DNA of 38,736 nt from Anaerolineae bacterium. GTDB taxonomy: Bacteria; Chloroflexota; Anaerolineae; Promineifilales; Promineifilaceae. Every line of letters begins with the position of its first letter. Position 1 is the stretch's first letter. The notes below the pieces were generated by a model. It had not been told where the DNA came from. It searched no databases and worked only from the letters and a program-made list of their open reading frames with translations. Of this stretch, positions 1-22,183 are shown piece by piece. The translations under genes and the position numbers were made by a program. The stretch spans positions 1 through 38,736 of the forward strand of contig WFSA01000220.1 in assembly GCA_015486215.1 (NCBI GenBank), given 5' to 3'.

Positions 1-17
1 ATACCTATCTGATGGGA

Positions 18-184
18 GTTGCGGGAATTCTGATTCCCGCAACAAATAAGATACAAAGACTTCCGCCAGCGTGTACTAGTATAACTTGGCCTAAGTTCTT
101 AGATGATATACGCCGCCTGTATCGGGAATCGGAATTCCCGATACTTGTCTGGTATGAGGTTGCGGGAATTCCGATTCCCGCAAC
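18..184. repeat. Three GGGAAT-N4-ATTCCC palindromes with duplicated flanks
   Basis: Perfect 11-bp inverted repeats with 4-nt spacers lie at 18-43 (GTTGCGGGAAT arms), 119-144 (GTATCGGGAAT arms) and 159-184 (GTTGCGGGAAT arms). The first and third are each followed by CAACAAATAA and then, a little further on, ACTTCCGCCAGC (59-70 and 211-222), so a larger unit is duplicated. Spacing is irregular and there are no uniform spacers, so this is not a CRISPR array. It lies directly upstream of the lipoprotein gene. Function unknown; a REP-like repeat or a regulatory array are both possible. Confidence 0.7.
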
Positions 185-278
185 AAATAATCGCAAGAAA
201 ACCCCGAAGAACTTCCGCCAGCAGTTACAAGTATCATATTTCACAAGAAGTTCTATGAAGTCCCACAAGGAGCGCATC

Positions 279-2270
279 ATGTCTTCCCTAAAAAAGAAAC
301 GCCCATTCATAAACACCTATAGTTTACCAATCACCCTTTTTATTGCCTTATTTATTTCAGCTTGTTCATTAGCAACGATTGCGCCGTCAACCTCACCGGT
401 AGACGGCGATACAGAATCAACGGTGGCAACAGCTATCGCGGCCACCATAGCATCGGGAGCAATGGCCGATACTGCCACCAATAATGGTGCATCAGCAAAC
501 GCAGGGGAAGCGACTGTTACCATTGCCGCTAATAGCACCCTGCCGCCCACGCCGCAAAGCCCGCCGGCACAGCCCACACCCAACAGTGCAGGTTCAGCCG
601 CAACTGAAACACCTTCGAATAATGGTCAATCAGCAGCCGATGTCACATTGCCCGCCTTCACCAATGTAGGCACAGCGAGCGACAATGTCTATTATGGTGA
701 CATCTCCTGCGGATCATCAATGGTCACTGTCCAAGCAACGGTCAGTGATAATACGGGCATCAGCCAAGTATGGGTCAACTATCTGTTTGCGGGTAATATG
801 GGAGGCGGCAATTGGAATCAGGTCAATTTAACGGCCGTTGGCAACAATAATTACGAAGTAGACATAGACATTGCCCTGCTCGTCAATAACGATCTGCAAG
901 GAGAGGATGGCGTGATGCAATATCAAGTTTACGCCATAGATGGGGCGGGAAATACGGCCGTTATGCCCGACGGTCACCCCTACGGAGTCAGCGTCACCCA
1001 TTGCAATCCTGCTGGGGCACAACCACAACCCAATAACGGCATCAGCATCGAAAACAGCCAATGGTCTCCTGATGTCAACACCTTTTATTACGGCGCATGT
1101 GCCGCCGATCAACCCACCCAGATCAATATACAAAGTTCAATTGAGCCGCGCGACCAGATTGATGTTGCCGAAATCGTCTACAGTTATGGAAACGACTCCA
1201 TAACATCTCCTGAATATACGGTAGATTTATTCGAGTTAGGCATAGGTGATATGGCTGGCGACATAGATACCGCGTGGCAAGCGGCTGACACTTTAGGCGT
1301 AGAGAACGGCCATATTAATATACGCATCCATGTAGTGGATAGAAATGGCAACGCAATGGACAGTTTGCAAATCAGATTAGCAATGGAGCCTTGTGCCGTA
1401 CTTGGCGATCCACCCGCCCTTATGATGCCGACCATTAACTATTTTAATGCGCCTGTCTCCGCCGCTGTCGGCGATACAGTCACCTTAGATTGGGATGTAT
1501 CCGATGCTTGCAAGGTATTCTTAGATGGCGATGAGGTGAACGCGCACGACAGCTTCCAATACGTTATCCCCATTCGCAAACCCGGCTCATTTCATGAACA
1601 CATGTTGACCGCATGGGGATCAAGTTGCAGCAATTTGACAGAGGCAGAGTCTGTTACTTCTATTCTAACGGAGGCAGATGGAAATGGGAATGGGAACGGC
1701 AATAATGCGGTATTGTTTGTGAACAACAGCTCTCATCCCATGATTTCATTGGTAGTTGATGGGGTAGAACTGCTGCGGAAAGAGCAGTCAGCAATCGCTG
1801 TCGGCGGCACAAAAACAGTAGAGGTATCTGCTGGCTCACATAATTTTATCGCTTCTAATGGCTGGTGGGCGTTTGGTGTCCGCAATGAAATGTACACCTT
1901 CTCTGGCACGTTCGAAGCGCAGGATGGTGTTGCCCAGACATTTAGAGACCCCAGTATTGCCGATCTGCTCACTGATTGGCAAAATAGCCGCTATTTTGGA
2001 GCGTTCTACATGGATAGTGACTTGAACGCGCACGCGGCGGGGTTCTGTTTCTATGCTGATGGTACGTTTGTGGAATTTGATAATGGGGTTCAGGTGGACA
2101 ACGGCCGTTTTGAACAGATCGACAGCAACGGCCAAATGGTCAGCACGCGGCTGATAGGGAAAAGCGTTTCAGTGGAAGCGTTGTATTATAATGCGTTCGG
2201 CACGCTGGATGTGCCGCGCGGCAATCTAGTGGATGAATTCGCGGCAGATAACAGCGTCGCTTGTCCATAA
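279..2270 (+). CDS. Large secreted lipoprotein with Ig-like segments
   Basis: A 663-residue protein with a lysine-rich N-terminus, a hydrophobic stretch and a lipobox ending ISAC (Cys29), so it is predicted to be exported by Sec and lipidated. Residues ~30-120 are Ala/Thr/Ser/Pro-rich and look like a flexible linker. After this come segments with beta-sandwich character: one around 'VTVQATVSDNTGISQVWVNY' typical of Ig-like repeats, a second similar one, a third around the Cys-containing 'DWDVSDACKVFLDG', a short GNGNGN linker, and a C-terminal domain without a recognisable family. The reading frame stays open upstream to position 12, but the ATG at 279 follows AAGGAG-like bases (267-272) and starts exactly at the signal peptide. 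The upstream part only translates the palindromic repeats. Function unknown; surface or binding role inferred. Confidence 0.85.
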   Translation: MSSLKKKRPFINTYSLPITLFIALFISACSLATIAPSTSPVDGDTESTVATAIAATIASGAMADTATNNGASANAGEATVTIAANSTLPPTPQSPPAQPTPNSAGSAATETPSNNGQSAADVTLPAFTNVGTASDNVYYGDISCGSSMVTVQATVSDNTGISQVWVNYLFAGNMGGGNWNQVNLTAVGNNNYEVDIDIALLVNNDLQGEDGVMQYQVYAIDGAGNTAVMPDGHPYGVSVTHCNPAGAQPQPNNGISIENSQWSPDVNTFYYGACAADQPTQINIQSSIEPRDQIDVAEIVYSYGNDSITSPEYTVDLFELGIGDMAGDIDTAWQAADTLGVENGHINIRIHVVDRNGNAMDSLQIRLAMEPCAVLGDPPALMMPTINYFNAPVSAAVGDTVTLDWDVSDACKVFLDGDEVNAHDSFQYVIPIRKPGSFHEHMLTAWGSSCSNLTEAESVTSILTEADGNGNGNGNNAVLFVNNSSHPMISLVVDGVELLRKEQSAIAVGGTKTVEVSAGSHNFIASNGWWAFGVRNEMYTFSGTFEAQDGVAQTFRDPSIADLLTDWQNSRYFGAFYMDSDLNAHAAGFCFYADGTFVEFDNGVQVDNGRFEQIDSNGQMVSTRLIGKSVSVEALYYNAFGTLDVPRGNLVDEFAADNSVACP

Positions 2271-4743: not shown

Positions 4744-4865
4744 GTATCTTTTCAATATTTCGGGGTGATTATAACAGATGAAGAAAGGAACAGATTGCGT
4801 TAGTCGAGAAAACCTGTTTTTTTCTAATCTGTTGTACTCTTGCCCCCAGATTTTTGAGAGGATAC
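4744..4865. mobile_element. MITE family B, copy B1
   Basis: A 122-bp element running from GTATCTTTTCAATATT to a GAGAGGATAC end, with the inner arms ('TAACAGAT', 'AATCTGTTGTA') also inverted. It is flanked by TTATGGAA and TTGTGGAA, a 7/8 match to an 8-bp target duplication. Related copies lie at 10736-10878, 21976-22098 and 34940-35062. No coding capacity. Confidence 0.8.
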
Positions 4866-4983: not shown

Positions 4984-5298
4984 TTAGATGTTGATCGTGC
5001 TTCCTGATTCGTAGCGGCGCAGGCCGATGTAGAAAACGGCCGTTGCTATCCTCCCCCACATCAAAAATGCGACTCCCCATAAAGCGAGCAGCAGCATCCT
5101 ATTCCCCGTTTTCGTAATTTGAACAGGAATCGCGGTATCTTCTCAATAAATCGTGGACAAGACTTGACAAATTTCATCAGCACTTTATTTTACACGAGTA
5201 CCATTAGGAAAATTTGTCAAGTCTCCCCAGAATACTGAGAAGATACGAATCGCGCCTATGGAAAATGCGGGGATCAACGTATGAAGGAGGAACGGCCG
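4984..5298 (-). pseudogene. Relic of ABC-2 type permease C-terminus, split by MITE A1
   Basis: Removing the 112-bp MITE A1 (5135-5246) and one copy of its 8-bp duplication joins an open minus-strand frame of about 64 codons ending at 4984-4986. It reads '..RPFLLHTLIPAFSIGAIPVQITK..' and then '..WGRIATAVFYIGLRRYESG..'. A hydrophobic segment followed by a 'GLRRYESG' tail is how many ABC-2 family permeases end. The frame is closed by a stop just upstream of 5298, so only the C-terminus survives. The MITE insertion and the open frame are seen directly. The family assignment is from recall of the tail motif and is tentative. Confidence 0.45.
5135..5246 (-). mobile_element. MITE family A, copy A1 with 8-bp TSD
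   Basis: A 112-bp element bounded by GTATCTTCTCAATA and its inverse, with long internal complementarity (GACTTGACAAATTT in both arms). It is flanked by perfect 8-bp duplications GAATCGCG at 5127-5134 and 5247-5254. It lies in the reverse orientation relative to copies A2, A3 and A5. It interrupts an ABC-2 permease relic. On the plus strand it contains a TTGACA (5164-5169), 16 nt, TATTTT (5186-5191) pair pointing at the tetR-type gene. Confidence 0.92.
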
Positions 5299-5418: not shown

Positions 5419-6120
5419 ATGACAAAAACCCGCCGTGAGCGCATCCGCGCCGCCACAATAAACGAAATAAAAGAGATCGCCCGCCAACAGATGGGAGAAA
5501 GCGGAGCCGGCGCGCTCTCGCTTCGTGCCATCTCCCGTGAGATGGGGATGAGCAGCCCCGCCCTTTACCGCTACTTTGCCAGCCGTGATGATTTAGTCAC
5601 TGCGTTGCTCGTAGATGTGTACACAGCTTTTGCGGACGCGCTGGAAATGGCGCGAGACGGCCGTTTACAAGGAGATCATATCGGTCGTTTTACCGCCGTC
5701 GCCTGCGCTTACCGCGACTGGGCGGTGGCAAGCCCGCAAGAGTACGCCCTCATTTTCGGTGTACCTATTCCCGGATATAAAGCCCCCAGCGATGTGACTA
5801 GCCCAATCGCCGCTCGCAGCATGATCGTCTTCTTAGACGTATTGGTGAATGCTGAAAAGGCGGGAAAAGCAGATTTCTCTGACAGTTACGTCGCCATCAC
5901 CCCTGCCGTGGCAGCGCAACTGCAACCGTGGGTTGATAAATTGCAATTCGATGGGGATATAGAGATCTTATACACAGCGATGAGCAACTGGAGCCTAATG
6001 CACGGTCTCGTGTCATTAGAAATTTTCGGTCATTTCGACTTGTGCATAACAGACGTAAGCTCCGGTGAACTCTACCGAACAGAAGTGGCAGCATTAGCAA
6101 AACGATTAAGCATACAATGA
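5419..6120 (+). CDS. TetR/AcrR family transcriptional regulator
   Basis: A 233-residue repressor-type protein. The N-terminal helix-turn-helix covers about residues 10-60, with the recognition region 'LSLRAISREMGMSSPALYRYFASRDDLVTALL' split by the usual Gly and ending in the YRYF motif. The C-terminal ligand domain contains 'AYRDWAVASPQEYALIF', characteristic of the WHG-type TetR C-terminal group. The gene is preceded by a promoter/operator palindrome and is followed after 29 nt by the oxidoreductase gene, with which it probably forms an operon, so it likely controls itself and that enzyme. No clear Shine-Dalgarno precedes the ATG. The ligand is unknown. Confidence 0.92.
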   Translation: MTKTRRERIRAATINEIKEIARQQMGESGAGALSLRAISREMGMSSPALYRYFASRDDLVTALLVDVYTAFADALEMARDGRLQGDHIGRFTAVACAYRDWAVASPQEYALIFGVPIPGYKAPSDVTSPIAARSMIVFLDVLVNAEKAGKADFSDSYVAITPAVAAQLQPWVDKLQFDGDIEILYTAMSNWSLMHGLVSLEIFGHFDLCITDVSSGELYRTEVAALAKRLSIQ

Positions 6121-6149
6121 ACGAGCATCACCCGAAAAATGGAGAATAG

Positions 6150-6224
6150 ATGAACTATAAACAGGTACTTATCACAGAATTCGGCAACCCAGACGTATCT
6201 TCTCAGTATTCTGGGGAGACTTGA
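6150..6224 (+). pseudogene. Original 5' end of the oxidoreductase gene, cut by MITE A2
   Basis: ATG 6150 follows a good GGAG site (6141-6144) and begins MNYKQVLITEFGNP, the normal beginning of this enzyme family. After codon 15 the frame enters MITE A2 and ends at TGA 6222-6224 inside the element. The codons after the element continue with 'PDVMKVVEKE', so the uninterrupted gene would have read ...FGNPDVMKVV.... The insertion plus duplication is 120 bp, which keeps the frame but brings in the stop. Confidence 0.85.
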
Positions 6225-6306
6225 CAAATTTTCCTAATGATACGCGTGTAAAATAAAGTGCTGATGAAATTTGTCAACTCTTGTCCACGATTTATTGAGA
6301 AGATAC
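6195..6306 (+). mobile_element. MITE family A, copy A2, inside a coding sequence
   Basis: A full-length 112-bp copy with intact GTATCTTCTCA ends. The flanks ACCCAGAC and GCCCAGAT are an 8-bp duplication with one change in each copy; the core CCCAGA is exact. It has inserted at codon 15 of the MDR oxidoreductase gene. It provides a GTG (6258) and an ATG (6264) in frame with the rest of the gene. Confidence 0.92.
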
Positions 6307-7283
6307 GCCCAGATGTTATGAAAGTGGTCGAAAAAGAGACACTGCCCGAACCATCAGCAAATAAAGTACGGGTCAAACTGTTGGCCGCCAGTGCCACCTT
6401 CACCGATACGATGGTACGCAAAGGAGTCTATTACGGTTTCAAGGAGAAGCCGCCGCTCTCTCCGGGCTACGATATGGTCGGCATGGTGGATAAACTCGGT
6501 ACGGCCGTTGCCAACTCAACGCTAAGAACCGGGCAGACGGTCGCCGATCTGACAGTGTGGGGCGCATACACCGAATATATGATCCGCCCAGCCGATTCAC
6601 TCATCCCCGTCCCCGATGGGATAGACCCCGCCGAAGCAGTCAGCGTGGTTTTATCCTATATGACCGCCTACCAAATGCTACATCGGGTGGCAAAAGTGAA
6701 GCGCGGGCAAAGTATTCTCGTTCATGGAGCGGGAGGCGCAGTGGGAACAGCGTTGATCGAGTTAGGCCGCTTGCTTGACTTAAACATGTACGGAACAGCC
6801 TCTGCATCAAAGCGTGAATTGGTGCAAAAATTAGGCGTGATACCGATTGATTATAGGAAGGAGGATTTTGTCACCCGCCTGCAAACTGAGGGCAAAGTTG
6901 ATGCCGCTTTCGATGCCATCAGCGGCGAAAATTTCAAGCGTTCCTTCAACTCCTTGAAAAAAGGGGGCATACTCATCCCGTATGGGTTTTATGATCAAGC
7001 GATGGGCAGAGGGGGCAATGTAGTACTAGATTATATGAAGGTGATGCTGTGGAATGTGCTACCCAACGGCCGTAGAGCCTCTTTCTACTCCATCACCGAT
7101 CTTCACAAAAAGAACCCCGACTGGTTCAAAGAGGATTTAGGCGCACTCTTCACCCTATTAGCAGAAGGAAAAATCAAACCAACCATCGAACGACGCATGA
7201 AATTAGAAGATGCCGTTGAAGCACATAAATTGATCGAGAGCGCGGCCGTTAAAGGAAGGATTGTATTAAGGGTGGCAGAGTAG
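6258..7283 (+). CDS. MDR superfamily NAD(P)-dependent oxidoreductase (quinone reductase-like), MITE-altered N-terminus
   Basis: A medium-chain dehydrogenase/reductase of the zinc-free quinone oxidoreductase type. The GroES-like fold comes first (reading 'LPEPSANKVRVKLLAASATFTDTMVRKG' in part, 'GYDMVGMVDKLG'), then a Rossmann domain with 'ILVHGAGGAVGTALIELGRLL' and 'GTASASKRELVQKLGV', which fits NADPH binding. The zinc ligands of alcohol dehydrogenases are absent. As it stands, the frame opens inside MITE A2: GTG 6258, ATG 6264, or the ancestral internal ATG 6318. None has a good ribosome site. The first ~16-18 residues are MITE-encoded in place of the natural start at 6150. The product lacks the first beta strand, or is expressed poorly. 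Reading after 6307 is intact to the stop. Confidence 0.85.
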   Translation: MLMKFVNSCPRFIEKIRPDVMKVVEKETLPEPSANKVRVKLLAASATFTDTMVRKGVYYGFKEKPPLSPGYDMVGMVDKLGTAVANSTLRTGQTVADLTVWGAYTEYMIRPADSLIPVPDGIDPAEAVSVVLSYMTAYQMLHRVAKVKRGQSILVHGAGGAVGTALIELGRLLDLNMYGTASASKRELVQKLGVIPIDYRKEDFVTRLQTEGKVDAAFDAISGENFKRSFNSLKKGGILIPYGFYDQAMGRGGNVVLDYMKVMLWNVLPNGRRASFYSITDLHKKNPDWFKEDLGALFTLLAEGKIKPTIERRMKLEDAVEAHKLIESAAVKGRIVLRVAE

Positions 7284-19324: not shown

Positions 19325-20305
19325 ATGGTATCAGATCGTTTTGGACGTACAATTAATTATCTTCGCATCTCTCTAACTGACAGATGTAATTTGCGCTGTG
19401 TCTACTGTATGTCAGAAGACATCACTTTTCGCCCCAACGCTGAATTGCTTCAAGATAATGAAATCATTCGTTTGGTTAAAATTTTCGCTACATTGGGATT
19501 TTATAAATTCCGTTTAACGGGCGGGGAGCCGACTATTCGGCATAATGTGGTAGATATTGTGAGCCGTATTGCCCAGACGGAAGGGGTAGAAACGGTGGCA
19601 ATGACTACGAATGGATTATTGTTGGATGAGTTAGCACGGCCGTTGGCCGCGGCTGGCTTACAGCGTGCCAATATCAGTATCGATACCATCGATCCTGATA
19701 AGTTCAAAAAATTGACCCGATGGGGACGTGTTGAACAAGTGTGGGAAGGTATTCGTGCTGCGGAAGAGGCGGGGATAGAGGTTAAGTTGAACGCGGTTGT
19801 GGTTAGAAATTATAATGATAAGCAAGATGTGGTCGACTTGGCACGTTTGACATTGGAACATGGATGGCAGGTTCGTTTTATTGAGATGATGCCTTTTGGC
19901 GACGTGGCTGATTTTCAACAATCTGGCACAGTGAGCCAAAAAGAGTTGATGGAGACAATAACGGCCGACTTGGGGAGTTTAACGGCCGTCAACGACGGCA
20001 CACTTGATGGTGAAGCCCAACTGTATACATTGGATAATGCTCCCGGAACGATTGGCTTTATCAGCTCCGTTACTCAACCATTTTGTGCCAGCTGCACACG
20101 GGTAAGATTGACTGCCGACGGCCGTCTACGGCTTTGTTTATTGCGCGAAAAAGAGCTAGACCTGCTTACCCCCATACGTAACGGCGCGACCGATGCCGAA
20201 CTTACAGGAGTCATCACTGAAGCAATCTGGTGGAAACCGTGGGGACACAAACTAGATAAAGACGTTATCCCCCTTAATCGCGGCATGTCTGAAATCGGTG
20301 GTTAG
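19325..20305 (+). CDS. moaA: GTP 3',8-cyclase MoaA
   Basis: A 326-residue radical SAM enzyme of molybdenum cofactor synthesis, making 3',8-cyclo-7,8-dihydro-GTP from GTP. The N-terminal [4Fe-4S] motif is Cys21-x3-Cys25-x2-Cys28 ('CNLRCVYC'). 'RLTGGEPTIR' is the SAM-binding GGE region. The C-terminal cluster is Cys254-x2-Cys257-x13-Cys271. The protein ends in Gly-Gly, as MoaA must for activity. Length is normal. No moaC, moaB or other moa genes are in the window. The 294-nt leader is long enough for regulation, but I could not recognise a Moco riboswitch. No clear Shine-Dalgarno precedes ATG 19325. Confidence 0.96.
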   Translation: MVSDRFGRTINYLRISLTDRCNLRCVYCMSEDITFRPNAELLQDNEIIRLVKIFATLGFYKFRLTGGEPTIRHNVVDIVSRIAQTEGVETVAMTTNGLLLDELARPLAAAGLQRANISIDTIDPDKFKKLTRWGRVEQVWEGIRAAEEAGIEVKLNAVVVRNYNDKQDVVDLARLTLEHGWQVRFIEMMPFGDVADFQQSGTVSQKELMETITADLGSLTAVNDGTLDGEAQLYTLDNAPGTIGFISSVTQPFCASCTRVRLTADGRLRLCLLREKELDLLTPIRNGATDAELTGVITEAIWWKPWGHKLDKDVIPLNRGMSEIGG

Positions 20306-20463: not shown

Positions 20464-21549
20464 TTAGCCGCTTAACGCCTCGCGTATACCATCTGCATAA
20501 GCCGCATTCTTACCCGCTATTTTTAATACACGTTTAGCCTTATCTAGTTGATTCTGCTTTCTATATAACAAGCCCAAGCTAAAATATGCAGCCGGCAATG
20601 TTAAGCCGCCGCCGATAGCACGCTCATAACACCCAATCGCATTCTTTACCTGTCCGCGGGATTCATAATCCATCGCCTGCCCAATCAAAGCATCACGCTC
20701 CAACTTACTCAAACTGCCTTCGTCATCCTCATCCCCTTCGTCACGGAAAATCTCTTCAGCAAGATGTTCCTGCGCCAATTTATGAGCATCCTCTAGGGCC
20801 GACGCTTTTTGTGAAGATTGTTTTACAGGTTGACGCTCTGCTTCAAAAGCACGTGCCATCTGTCGTACCATCGCGGGTAAATCTTCTTCATCCGTTTTTA
20901 CCGCTTCTTTCTCAACGACTGGTTCCTCTTCTTCCTCTTCTTCGCGGTTATACTCATCCGCTCCCTTGCGAATGAGGCTGATAGCGGTGATAACATCAGG
21001 ACTGTCGGGGTCTAAGCGTAACGCCGCCCGGCACATTTTTAATGCTTTCTTATCTTCATTCCGCATCTGCAAAATGCGGGCAATTGCCAGATATTCACGA
21101 ACCGCGTCACGGATATTTTCTTGTCGTTGGTACACCATCGCTAAACGGCGGTGCGGCCCTAATAGGGATGATTCAAGCCGTACAGCACGCTGCCAATGGC
21201 TGACCGCATTATCCAGCTTCCGTTGACGGAAGAACACTTCGCCAACAGCCATATAGGTGCGTGCTGCCTCGCTCAGTCGTCCAAGCCGCTCCTGCATATC
21301 GGCTACTTTTTGCAGATAGCTGACATCCCCCTTTGAATAACGTGCCGCTAATTTATAACATTCCAACGCCCGATCAAGCTGCTTTAAGCCAAAACAGGCT
21401 TGACCTAAACCATCATATGCGGGTGCAGATTTGGCAAATTCAGAGATTGCCACACGGTAAACACCAAATGCTTTTTTCCATTGCTCGTCTTCCAAATAGA
21501 TAGAGCCTTTTTTGAGTGCTTTTTCATACCTTGCGCGATTTTTAGCCAC
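20464..21549 (-). CDS. TPR-repeat protein
   Basis: A 361-residue cytosolic protein from GTG 21549, which has AAAGGAG at the right distance. The frame stays open further upstream, but that part translates MITE A5 and is unlikely to be native. At least five tetratricopeptide units are visible around residues 20-190 (for example 'AYDGLGQACFGLKQLDRALECYKLAAR' in two halves and 'AVSHWQRAVRLE'), plus two near the C-terminus ('YFSLGLLYRKQNQLDKAKRV'). A Glu/Lys-rich low-complexity segment (~200-280) divides them. TPR proteins act as protein-binding scaffolds; the partner is unknown. A MITE-borne promoter-like pair lies upstream. Confidence 0.9.
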   Translation of the reverse strand: MAKNRARYEKALKKGSIYLEDEQWKKAFGVYRVAISEFAKSAPAYDGLGQACFGLKQLDRALECYKLAARYSKGDVSYLQKVADMQERLGRLSEAARTYMAVGEVFFRQRKLDNAVSHWQRAVRLESSLLGPHRRLAMVYQRQENIRDAVREYLAIARILQMRNEDKKALKMCRAALRLDPDSPDVITAISLIRKGADEYNREEEEEEEPVVEKEAVKTDEEDLPAMVRQMARAFEAERQPVKQSSQKASALEDAHKLAQEHLAEEIFRDEGDEDDEGSLSKLERDALIGQAMDYESRGQVKNAIGCYERAIGGGLTLPAAYFSLGLLYRKQNQLDKAKRVLKIAGKNAAYADGIREALSG

Positions 21550-21621
21550 TAGCTTACTCCTTTGGGTAACAATAATGGATGCAAGAACTAAACCGCTTGA
21601 TTTTAGCTCTATGCTCTGTTG

Positions 21622-21733
21622 GTATCTTCTCAGTATTCTGGGAAGACTTGACAAATTTTCCTAATGATACTCGTGTAAAATAAAGTGCTGATAAAATTTG
21701 TCAAGTCTTGTCCACGATTTATTGAGAAGATAC
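21622..21733 (+). mobile_element. MITE family A, copy A5 with perfect 8-bp TSD
   Basis: A full-length 112-bp copy. Flanked by perfect CTCTGTTG duplications (21614-21621 and 21734-21741). It lies 72 bp upstream of the TPR start. On the minus strand it has TTGACA (21704-21699), 16 nt, TATTTT (21682-21677) facing the TPR gene. Confidence 0.93.
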
Positions 21734-21932: not shown

Positions 21933-22183
21933 GTAACTACTCAGCCTATCAATTATTTCACCACAAAGAAGCAAGGTATCTTCTCAATAAAGTGGGGACA
22001 TGAGTGCAGCTGATTTGGAAAAGAACAGATTGACTCGACTGACGCAATTTGCTCCTTTCTTAATTTGTTGTACTCACCCCGAAATATTGAGATGTTACGA
22101 AGCAAAGATCACAGAGAAAATCTTAAAAAACTTTATGTTCTTCGTGTCTTTGTGGTTAATTTGGACAAGGGCTGAGTAGTTAC
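21933..22183. mobile_element. Element E, copy E1 (IS66-like ends), carrying MITE B3
   Basis: Inverted ends GTAACTACTCAGCC. Perfect 8-bp duplications CAATTGCC (21925-21932, 22184-22191). About 120 bp when B3 is removed. Ends starting GTAA and 8-bp duplications are features of IS66-family elements (known), so E may be mobilised by an IS66-type transposase (inference). Other E ends: 35181-35224 and about 30260-30273. Confidence 0.88.
21976..22098. mobile_element. MITE family B, copy B3, nested in element E1
   Basis: 123 bp, from GTATCTTCTCAATA to a decayed end TTGAGATGTTAC. The flanks GAAGCAAG / GAAGCAAA match at 7 of 8 positions. It inserted into E1 after E1 had arrived. Confidence 0.87.

Follow-up and report, generated by a model that had tools for sequence, protein, structure and literature searches.

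MITE open reading frames fused to host genes have already been described (PMC2759123, PMC10969869). In enterobacteria, the small mobile sequences RU-1, RU-2 and RU-3 are found fused to genes, with RU-2 making up the N-terminal half of YP_0349 wbbJ (Delihas 2007, PMC2759123), and the Rickettsia palindromic elements are short repeats inserted in frame in protein genes (review PMC10969869). In case of Coxiella burnetii, QMITE1 and QMITE2 are present in 45 and 78 copies respectively, which overlap gene ends and carry ORFs (PMC5896051); for Photorhabdus, 711 ERIC copies are quoted (review PMC10969869). The case described here joins this known kind: in a window of 38,736 nucleotides (the whole stretch of DNA analysed, which is one entire contig of a Chloroflexota-type draft genome of 4.13 Mb in 341 contigs), a 112-bp MITE has split the start of an oxidoreductase gene.

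Anatomy of the insertion and the ancestral start

The element occupies positions 6195–6306 (+ strand) and is bounded by TIRs (GTATCTTCTCA...TGAGAAGATAC) that are perfect over 11 bp (arms of 15 bp at 93%), with a hairpin extending over almost its whole length. Its single strand folds with −40.4 kcal/mol (z = −6.35), and exact TIR 11-mers occur 598 + 623 times in the genome versus 1 + 1 for the reversed control: taken together, these values indicate that the element is not a product of chance. It is flanked by 8-bp target duplications (TSD), the left copy at 6187–6194 (ACCCAGAC) and the right copy at 6307–6314 (GCCCAGAT), which agree at 6/8 positions with both mismatches adjoining the element; we read these mismatches as mutations after insertion, an unusual insertion event being a possible alternative. 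The native first 15 codons (6150–6194, +; MNYKQVLITEFGNPD), which align with the orthologue segment MSYKRVIITEFGGPE, are cut off from the intact gene body (6315–7283, +; orthologues at 70–80% identity), which is open as far as TAG 7281–7283. The initial annotation had proposed that a MITE splits an oxidoreductase gene, that the frame is kept and that TGA 6222 ends the native frame, and all three points were borne out: the MITE lies after codon 15; the element and one 8-bp duplication amount to 120 bp, so that the downstream reading frame is preserved; and the native frame from ATG 6150 meets a TGA within the MITE (6222–6224, +), now giving the 24-codon product MNYKQVLITEFGNPDVSSQYSGET.

The product of the split gene contains the Pfam domains ADH_N and ADH_zinc_N_2. 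The nearest NCBIfam model, the PIG3-type quinone oxidoreductase TIGR02824, is matched with 160.6 bits, well under the curated cut-off of 296.8; a Foldseek search with the structural model returned VAT-1 and quinone oxidoreductases as the best matches, with query-normalised TM-scores of up to 0.90. By domain content and predicted fold, the gene belongs to the medium-chain dehydrogenases/reductases, quinone oxidoreductase branch, and encodes a putative quinone-reductase-like enzyme. A TetR-type regulator gene (5419–6120, +; Pfam TetR_N and TetR_C_33) lies 29 bases upstream. In a genome of the same family (G028, locus L062), an orthologous TetR gene (66% identical) is found directly upstream of an intact orthologue (70%; MSYKRVIITEFGGPEVMK...) that starts MSYKRVIITEFGGPEVMKFVEE and has no insert.

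Orthologues in five Chloroflexi/Anaerolineae-type genomes as well as in Bacteroidales, Ignavibacteriales and other groups begin with an ATG 15 codons before the residue encoded at 6315. Identity of these close orthologues from public genomes is 71–80% for the Chloroflexi/Anaerolineae-type MAGs and 53–60% for Spirochaetaceae, Bacteroidales, Ignavibacteriales and a Hodarchaeota MAG, with a conserved N-terminal segment MSYKxVIITEFGGPE; distant orthologues start a few codons around the equivalent of ATG 6150, or farther upstream. Since the ATG of the close orthologues lies exactly 15 codons before the 6315 residue, the ancestral start is 6150. Orthologues that naturally start at the equivalent of 6318 had been named as evidence that would speak against a split gene: among those compared there is none, and the close orthologues start at the ATG 6150 equivalent.

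The MITE family and its IS66-type right end

In a 1.55-Mb sample of the genome we counted 234 full copies of the MITE, which corresponds to about 600 genome-wide (estimate about 622). A perfect 8-bp duplication is found at 140 of the 234, indicating that 8 bp is the right TSD length; a further 32 match at 7/8 and three at 6/8, the remainder having no recognisable duplication, and the copy at 6195–6306 is one of the three in this tail of the distribution. Comparison of 140 copies with the consensus revealed 11 that are identical and most others within 3 changes; the copy at 6195–6306 carries a private G at position 50 and, at position 84, a C that is a subfamily base present in 38/140 copies. 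The element is thus a MITE by its 112 bp without a transposase-length ORF, by its TIRs and constant TSD and by its many near-identical dispersed copies. Length classes of 143 bp and of 122–124 bp also exist, other genera of the family (G010, G012, G014) contain related elements at 71–89% identity, and a version of 63 bp, flanked by an 8-bp duplication, is present in G028.

In a draft of 341 contigs that is full of this repeat, the element at 6195–6306 could in principle have been placed by misassembly, the true gene being uninterrupted. We consider this very improbable: both flanks come from one gene, with duplicated bases and in synteny with G028, the copy has its private base at position 50, and typical read pairs are longer than a repeat of 112 bp.

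Further repeats are found in the window. Just upstream of the TetR gene lie a 122-bp relative of the MITE (4744–4865, TSD 7/8) and a 112-bp copy (5135–5246, TSD GAATCGCG, 8/8). Another 112-bp copy (21622–21733) has the TSD CTCTGTTG on both sides and contains the TTG start of the longest ORF of a TPR-like gene (20464–21654, −; MSSLPRILRRYQQ...), which is likely a wrong start. A GTAAC-ended element (21933–22183, 251 bp in all, TSD CAATTGCC) hosts a nested 123-bp element of GTATC type at 21976–22098 (TSD GAAGCAAG/GAAGCAAA), and the first ORF of the window (12–300), upstream of a lipoprotein-like gene, opens with a repeated peptide (GVAGILIPATN ... EVAGIPIPATN) that looks to derive from another repeat. 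Elsewhere in the genome, two MITEs about 700 bp apart have the octamer GATAATTG on all four sides and a response-regulator-like ORF between them (L098:2652–3570), which looks like a segmental duplication or composite, and at L127:14225–17219 several repeat families are packed together, GTAAC-ended elements and a GTGACAGGCACTTGGCAAGTGCCTGTCAC palindrome among them. Repeats in this genome are far from limited to the one MITE family.

IS66 elements are characterised by an 8-bp target duplication and by ends beginning GTA, and the 8-bp duplication and GTA-starting ends of the MITE suggested this family as parent. A fragment from G012 matches the C-terminus of the IS66 transposase (PF03050, DDE_Tnp_IS66; 22.1 bits versus a cut-off of 23.1) and continues into a MITE-type end. 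Numerous contig ends in three genomes of the same family (G012, G014 and G029) show this order again: transposase C-terminus, stop, some tens of bases, ...TTTATTGAGAAGATAC, and then a unique flank that differs from case to case, as is typical of an IS present in many copies at which the assembly breaks. In the genome of the window itself, a 119-aa remnant of an IS66-type transposase C-terminus ends in a MITE-type terminus (L204, G000:C263, about 1501–1862); the Pfam search of this genome gave no PF03050 match above threshold and no intact transposase, and the 1.10 Mb scanned for paired ends held no full element with both ends. All IS66-type pieces recovered are C-terminal parts of the transposase, with no left end, accessory gene or intact autonomous copy among them. 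Three other candidates for the parent or an autonomous element were rejected: two DDE_Tnp_1 matches in the same genome are without matching ends, the 2,995-bp unit at L127 with matching 8-bp flanks contains a membrane-transporter-like ORF and other repeats and no transposase, and the 919-bp unit at L098 consists of two MITEs around the response-regulator-like ORF. From the shared right end, the MITE is most likely an IS66-type derivative.

Consequences for the split gene

In order to place the insertion among the other copies, we removed each TSD-bearing copy and asked whether the restored site falls inside an ORF of 150 aa or more; these counts rest on the 1.55-Mb sample, 38% of the genome. 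Only 21/175 sites lie within such an ORF versus 472/600 random positions, and nearly all of the 21 either are within a few codons of an ORF end or concern ORFs that are doubtful, leaving the window gene and one at L166 as the only clear gene interruptions among the 175. In-gene insertions are therefore strongly depleted, which is what one would expect of insertions that tend to be harmful, and the window case is a rare gene-breaking insertion. At L166 (15098–15209), the gene of a GIY-YIG-like protein (264 aa) is interrupted after codon 59 by a MITE whose orientation and phase match those in the window gene, and the frame from the MITE GTG/ATG runs on into the gene.

As the initial annotation had stated, a GTG (6258–6260, +) and an ATG (6264–6266, +) of the MITE are in frame with the body: the first opens a 341-aa ORF (6258–7283), the second a 339-aa chimera. 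The new start codon claimed there is real as anatomy and putative as to function. Its shortened protein has to be corrected: initiation at ATG 6264 yields 339 aa versus 337 aa for the ancestral protein, with MKFVNSCPRFIEKIRPDVMKVV... in place of MNYKQVLITEFGNPDVMKVV..., such that 17 residues encoded by the MITE and by the mutated duplication substitute for 15 native ones; a shorter product of 321 aa would arise only from the native internal ATG (6318–6320, +). The native ATG 6150 is preceded by a Shine-Dalgarno-like site TGGAGA (6139–6149, +; duplex −6.4 kcal/mol, spacing 4), whereas the duplex energies at GTG 6258, ATG 6264 and ATG 6318 are 0, −0.5 and −1.5 kcal/mol. Other window genes, those at 19325 and 5419 among them, are also without a clear Shine-Dalgarno sequence, so its absence is no proof of silence. 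A search of the MITE for an outward + strand sigma-70-type promoter found none, the sole match being directed back out of the left end.

Initiation at ATG 6318, yielding a truncated 321-aa enzyme, would use a native codon, upstream of which the end of the MITE places a GAGAAG/AGAAGA stretch. However, this Shine-Dalgarno-like stretch is weak and lies 14 nt off, no orthologue begins at this position and the first strand of the fold would be lost, making this the start we regard as improbable.

The second alternative is that the MITE rescued the gene: the 339-aa chimera made from GTG 6258 or ATG 6264 would be active and under selection, with the MITE-encoded PRFIEKI supplying the first strand. 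Frame, orientation and near-ancestral length fit such a rescue, as does a body without relaxed constraint. In the centroid fold both codons are within the apical loop of the predicted hairpin, and a ribosome stopping at 6222 would open the 5′ arm. The AlphaFold2 model of the chimera has a strand at residues 9–15 beside the next native strand, and L166, the sole other clear gene-body case, also reopens its frame from a MITE start. Against this, both codons lack a Shine-Dalgarno match, and the substituted segment is conserved across phyla. The model itself also argues against rescue: pLDDT over the first 20 residues was 52 and 72 for the chimera, compared to 93 and 90 for the intact orthologue (in both runs, homologue alignment rows had been stripped of all N-terminal sequence), and a 2-residue turn stands where 8 residues stood, such that the predicted MITE-encoded N-terminus appears at best a poor substitute. 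The agreement in orientation and phase between the two gene-body cases would be expected 1 in 36 by chance, with n = 2 and counted after the fact. On balance, we hold a functional rescue to be unlikely, although it retains some weight.

Extending this idea to the whole family, copies within genes may persist chiefly where the frame leading out of them (GTG/ATG...KFVxSCPRFIEKI) matches the phase of the gene, the MITE then acting as a portable translation start and the genome holding functional proteins with MITE-encoded N-termini. We regard this wider proposal as doubtful.

The claim that the remainder of the gene is undamaged was confirmed: the body at 6315–7283 is free of further stops and frameshifts, the accumulation of which had been named in advance as counter-evidence. 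At sites invariant in nine other orthologues, the split gene is changed at 2/94, a value bracketed by those of the closest intact orthologues (L230–L232: 1, 4 and 2 changes out of 93–96), although this measure mostly reflects the time before insertion, as dS from the nearest relative is close to saturated. The gene does not look like a decayed pseudogene, showing neither relaxed constraint nor further body lesions, and both observations speak against disruption. The two differences in the TSD suggest that some time has passed since the insertion, in which case a dead gene could be expected to show some decay. Divergence since insertion is estimated at 2.3% (three changes at 128 sites, namely the private base and the two TSD differences), at which an unselected body would remain without a stop with a probability of about 0.37, or about 0.08 when indels at an assumed rate are included: the absence of stops is thus a weak dating argument.

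Considering that the only start with a good Shine-Dalgarno sequence is the native one and that the MITE-encoded N-terminus is poorly modelled, the gene is most likely disrupted or weakly expressed. We therefore favour, with moderate confidence, a disruptive insertion: a non-autonomous MITE, moved in trans by an IS66-type transposase, would have entered after codon 15 and duplicated 8 bp. The native ribosome-binding site and ATG 6150 would then drive only a 24-residue peptide ended at TGA 6222, and the enzyme body could be made only through reinitiation 34–40 nt downstream (GTG 6258/ATG 6264) or at ATG 6318. The gene would be silent, or weakly expressed as an N-terminally swapped chimera, with enzyme activity probably lost or reduced, and the intact body would mean that the time since insertion has been too short for visible decay.

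Comparison with known systems

The locus offers a clean before-and-after case, in which a bacterial MITE breaks a gene yet supplies an in-frame replacement start codon; if the chimera were active, a protein N-terminus would be replaceable in one step. Gene callers will place starts inside MITEs, and by mechanical calling several ORFs here begin in one; in the sample, around eighteen copies open frames of about 150 aa or more that extend into an adjacent gene. With about 600 full copies, the setting is among the denser MITE invasions reported for bacteria.

The element shares with IS66-family ISs and their MITE derivatives the 8-bp TSD, the GTA ends and a right end in common with a multi-copy element matching DDE_Tnp_IS66, differing in that only C-terminal pieces of the transposase are seen here. 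Rickettsia palindromic elements are read through as protein, whereas the MITE in the window brings an in-frame stop and a new start. QMITE1 and QMITE2 affect functional genes at the 3′ end, the MITE described here at the 5′ end, and the copy number is about 600 in this genome. As with RU-1, RU-2 and RU-3, host ORFs come to begin or end in a small repeat that itself carries an open frame; the sequences are unrelated, and in the present case orthologues show how the ancestral gene was built before it was split.
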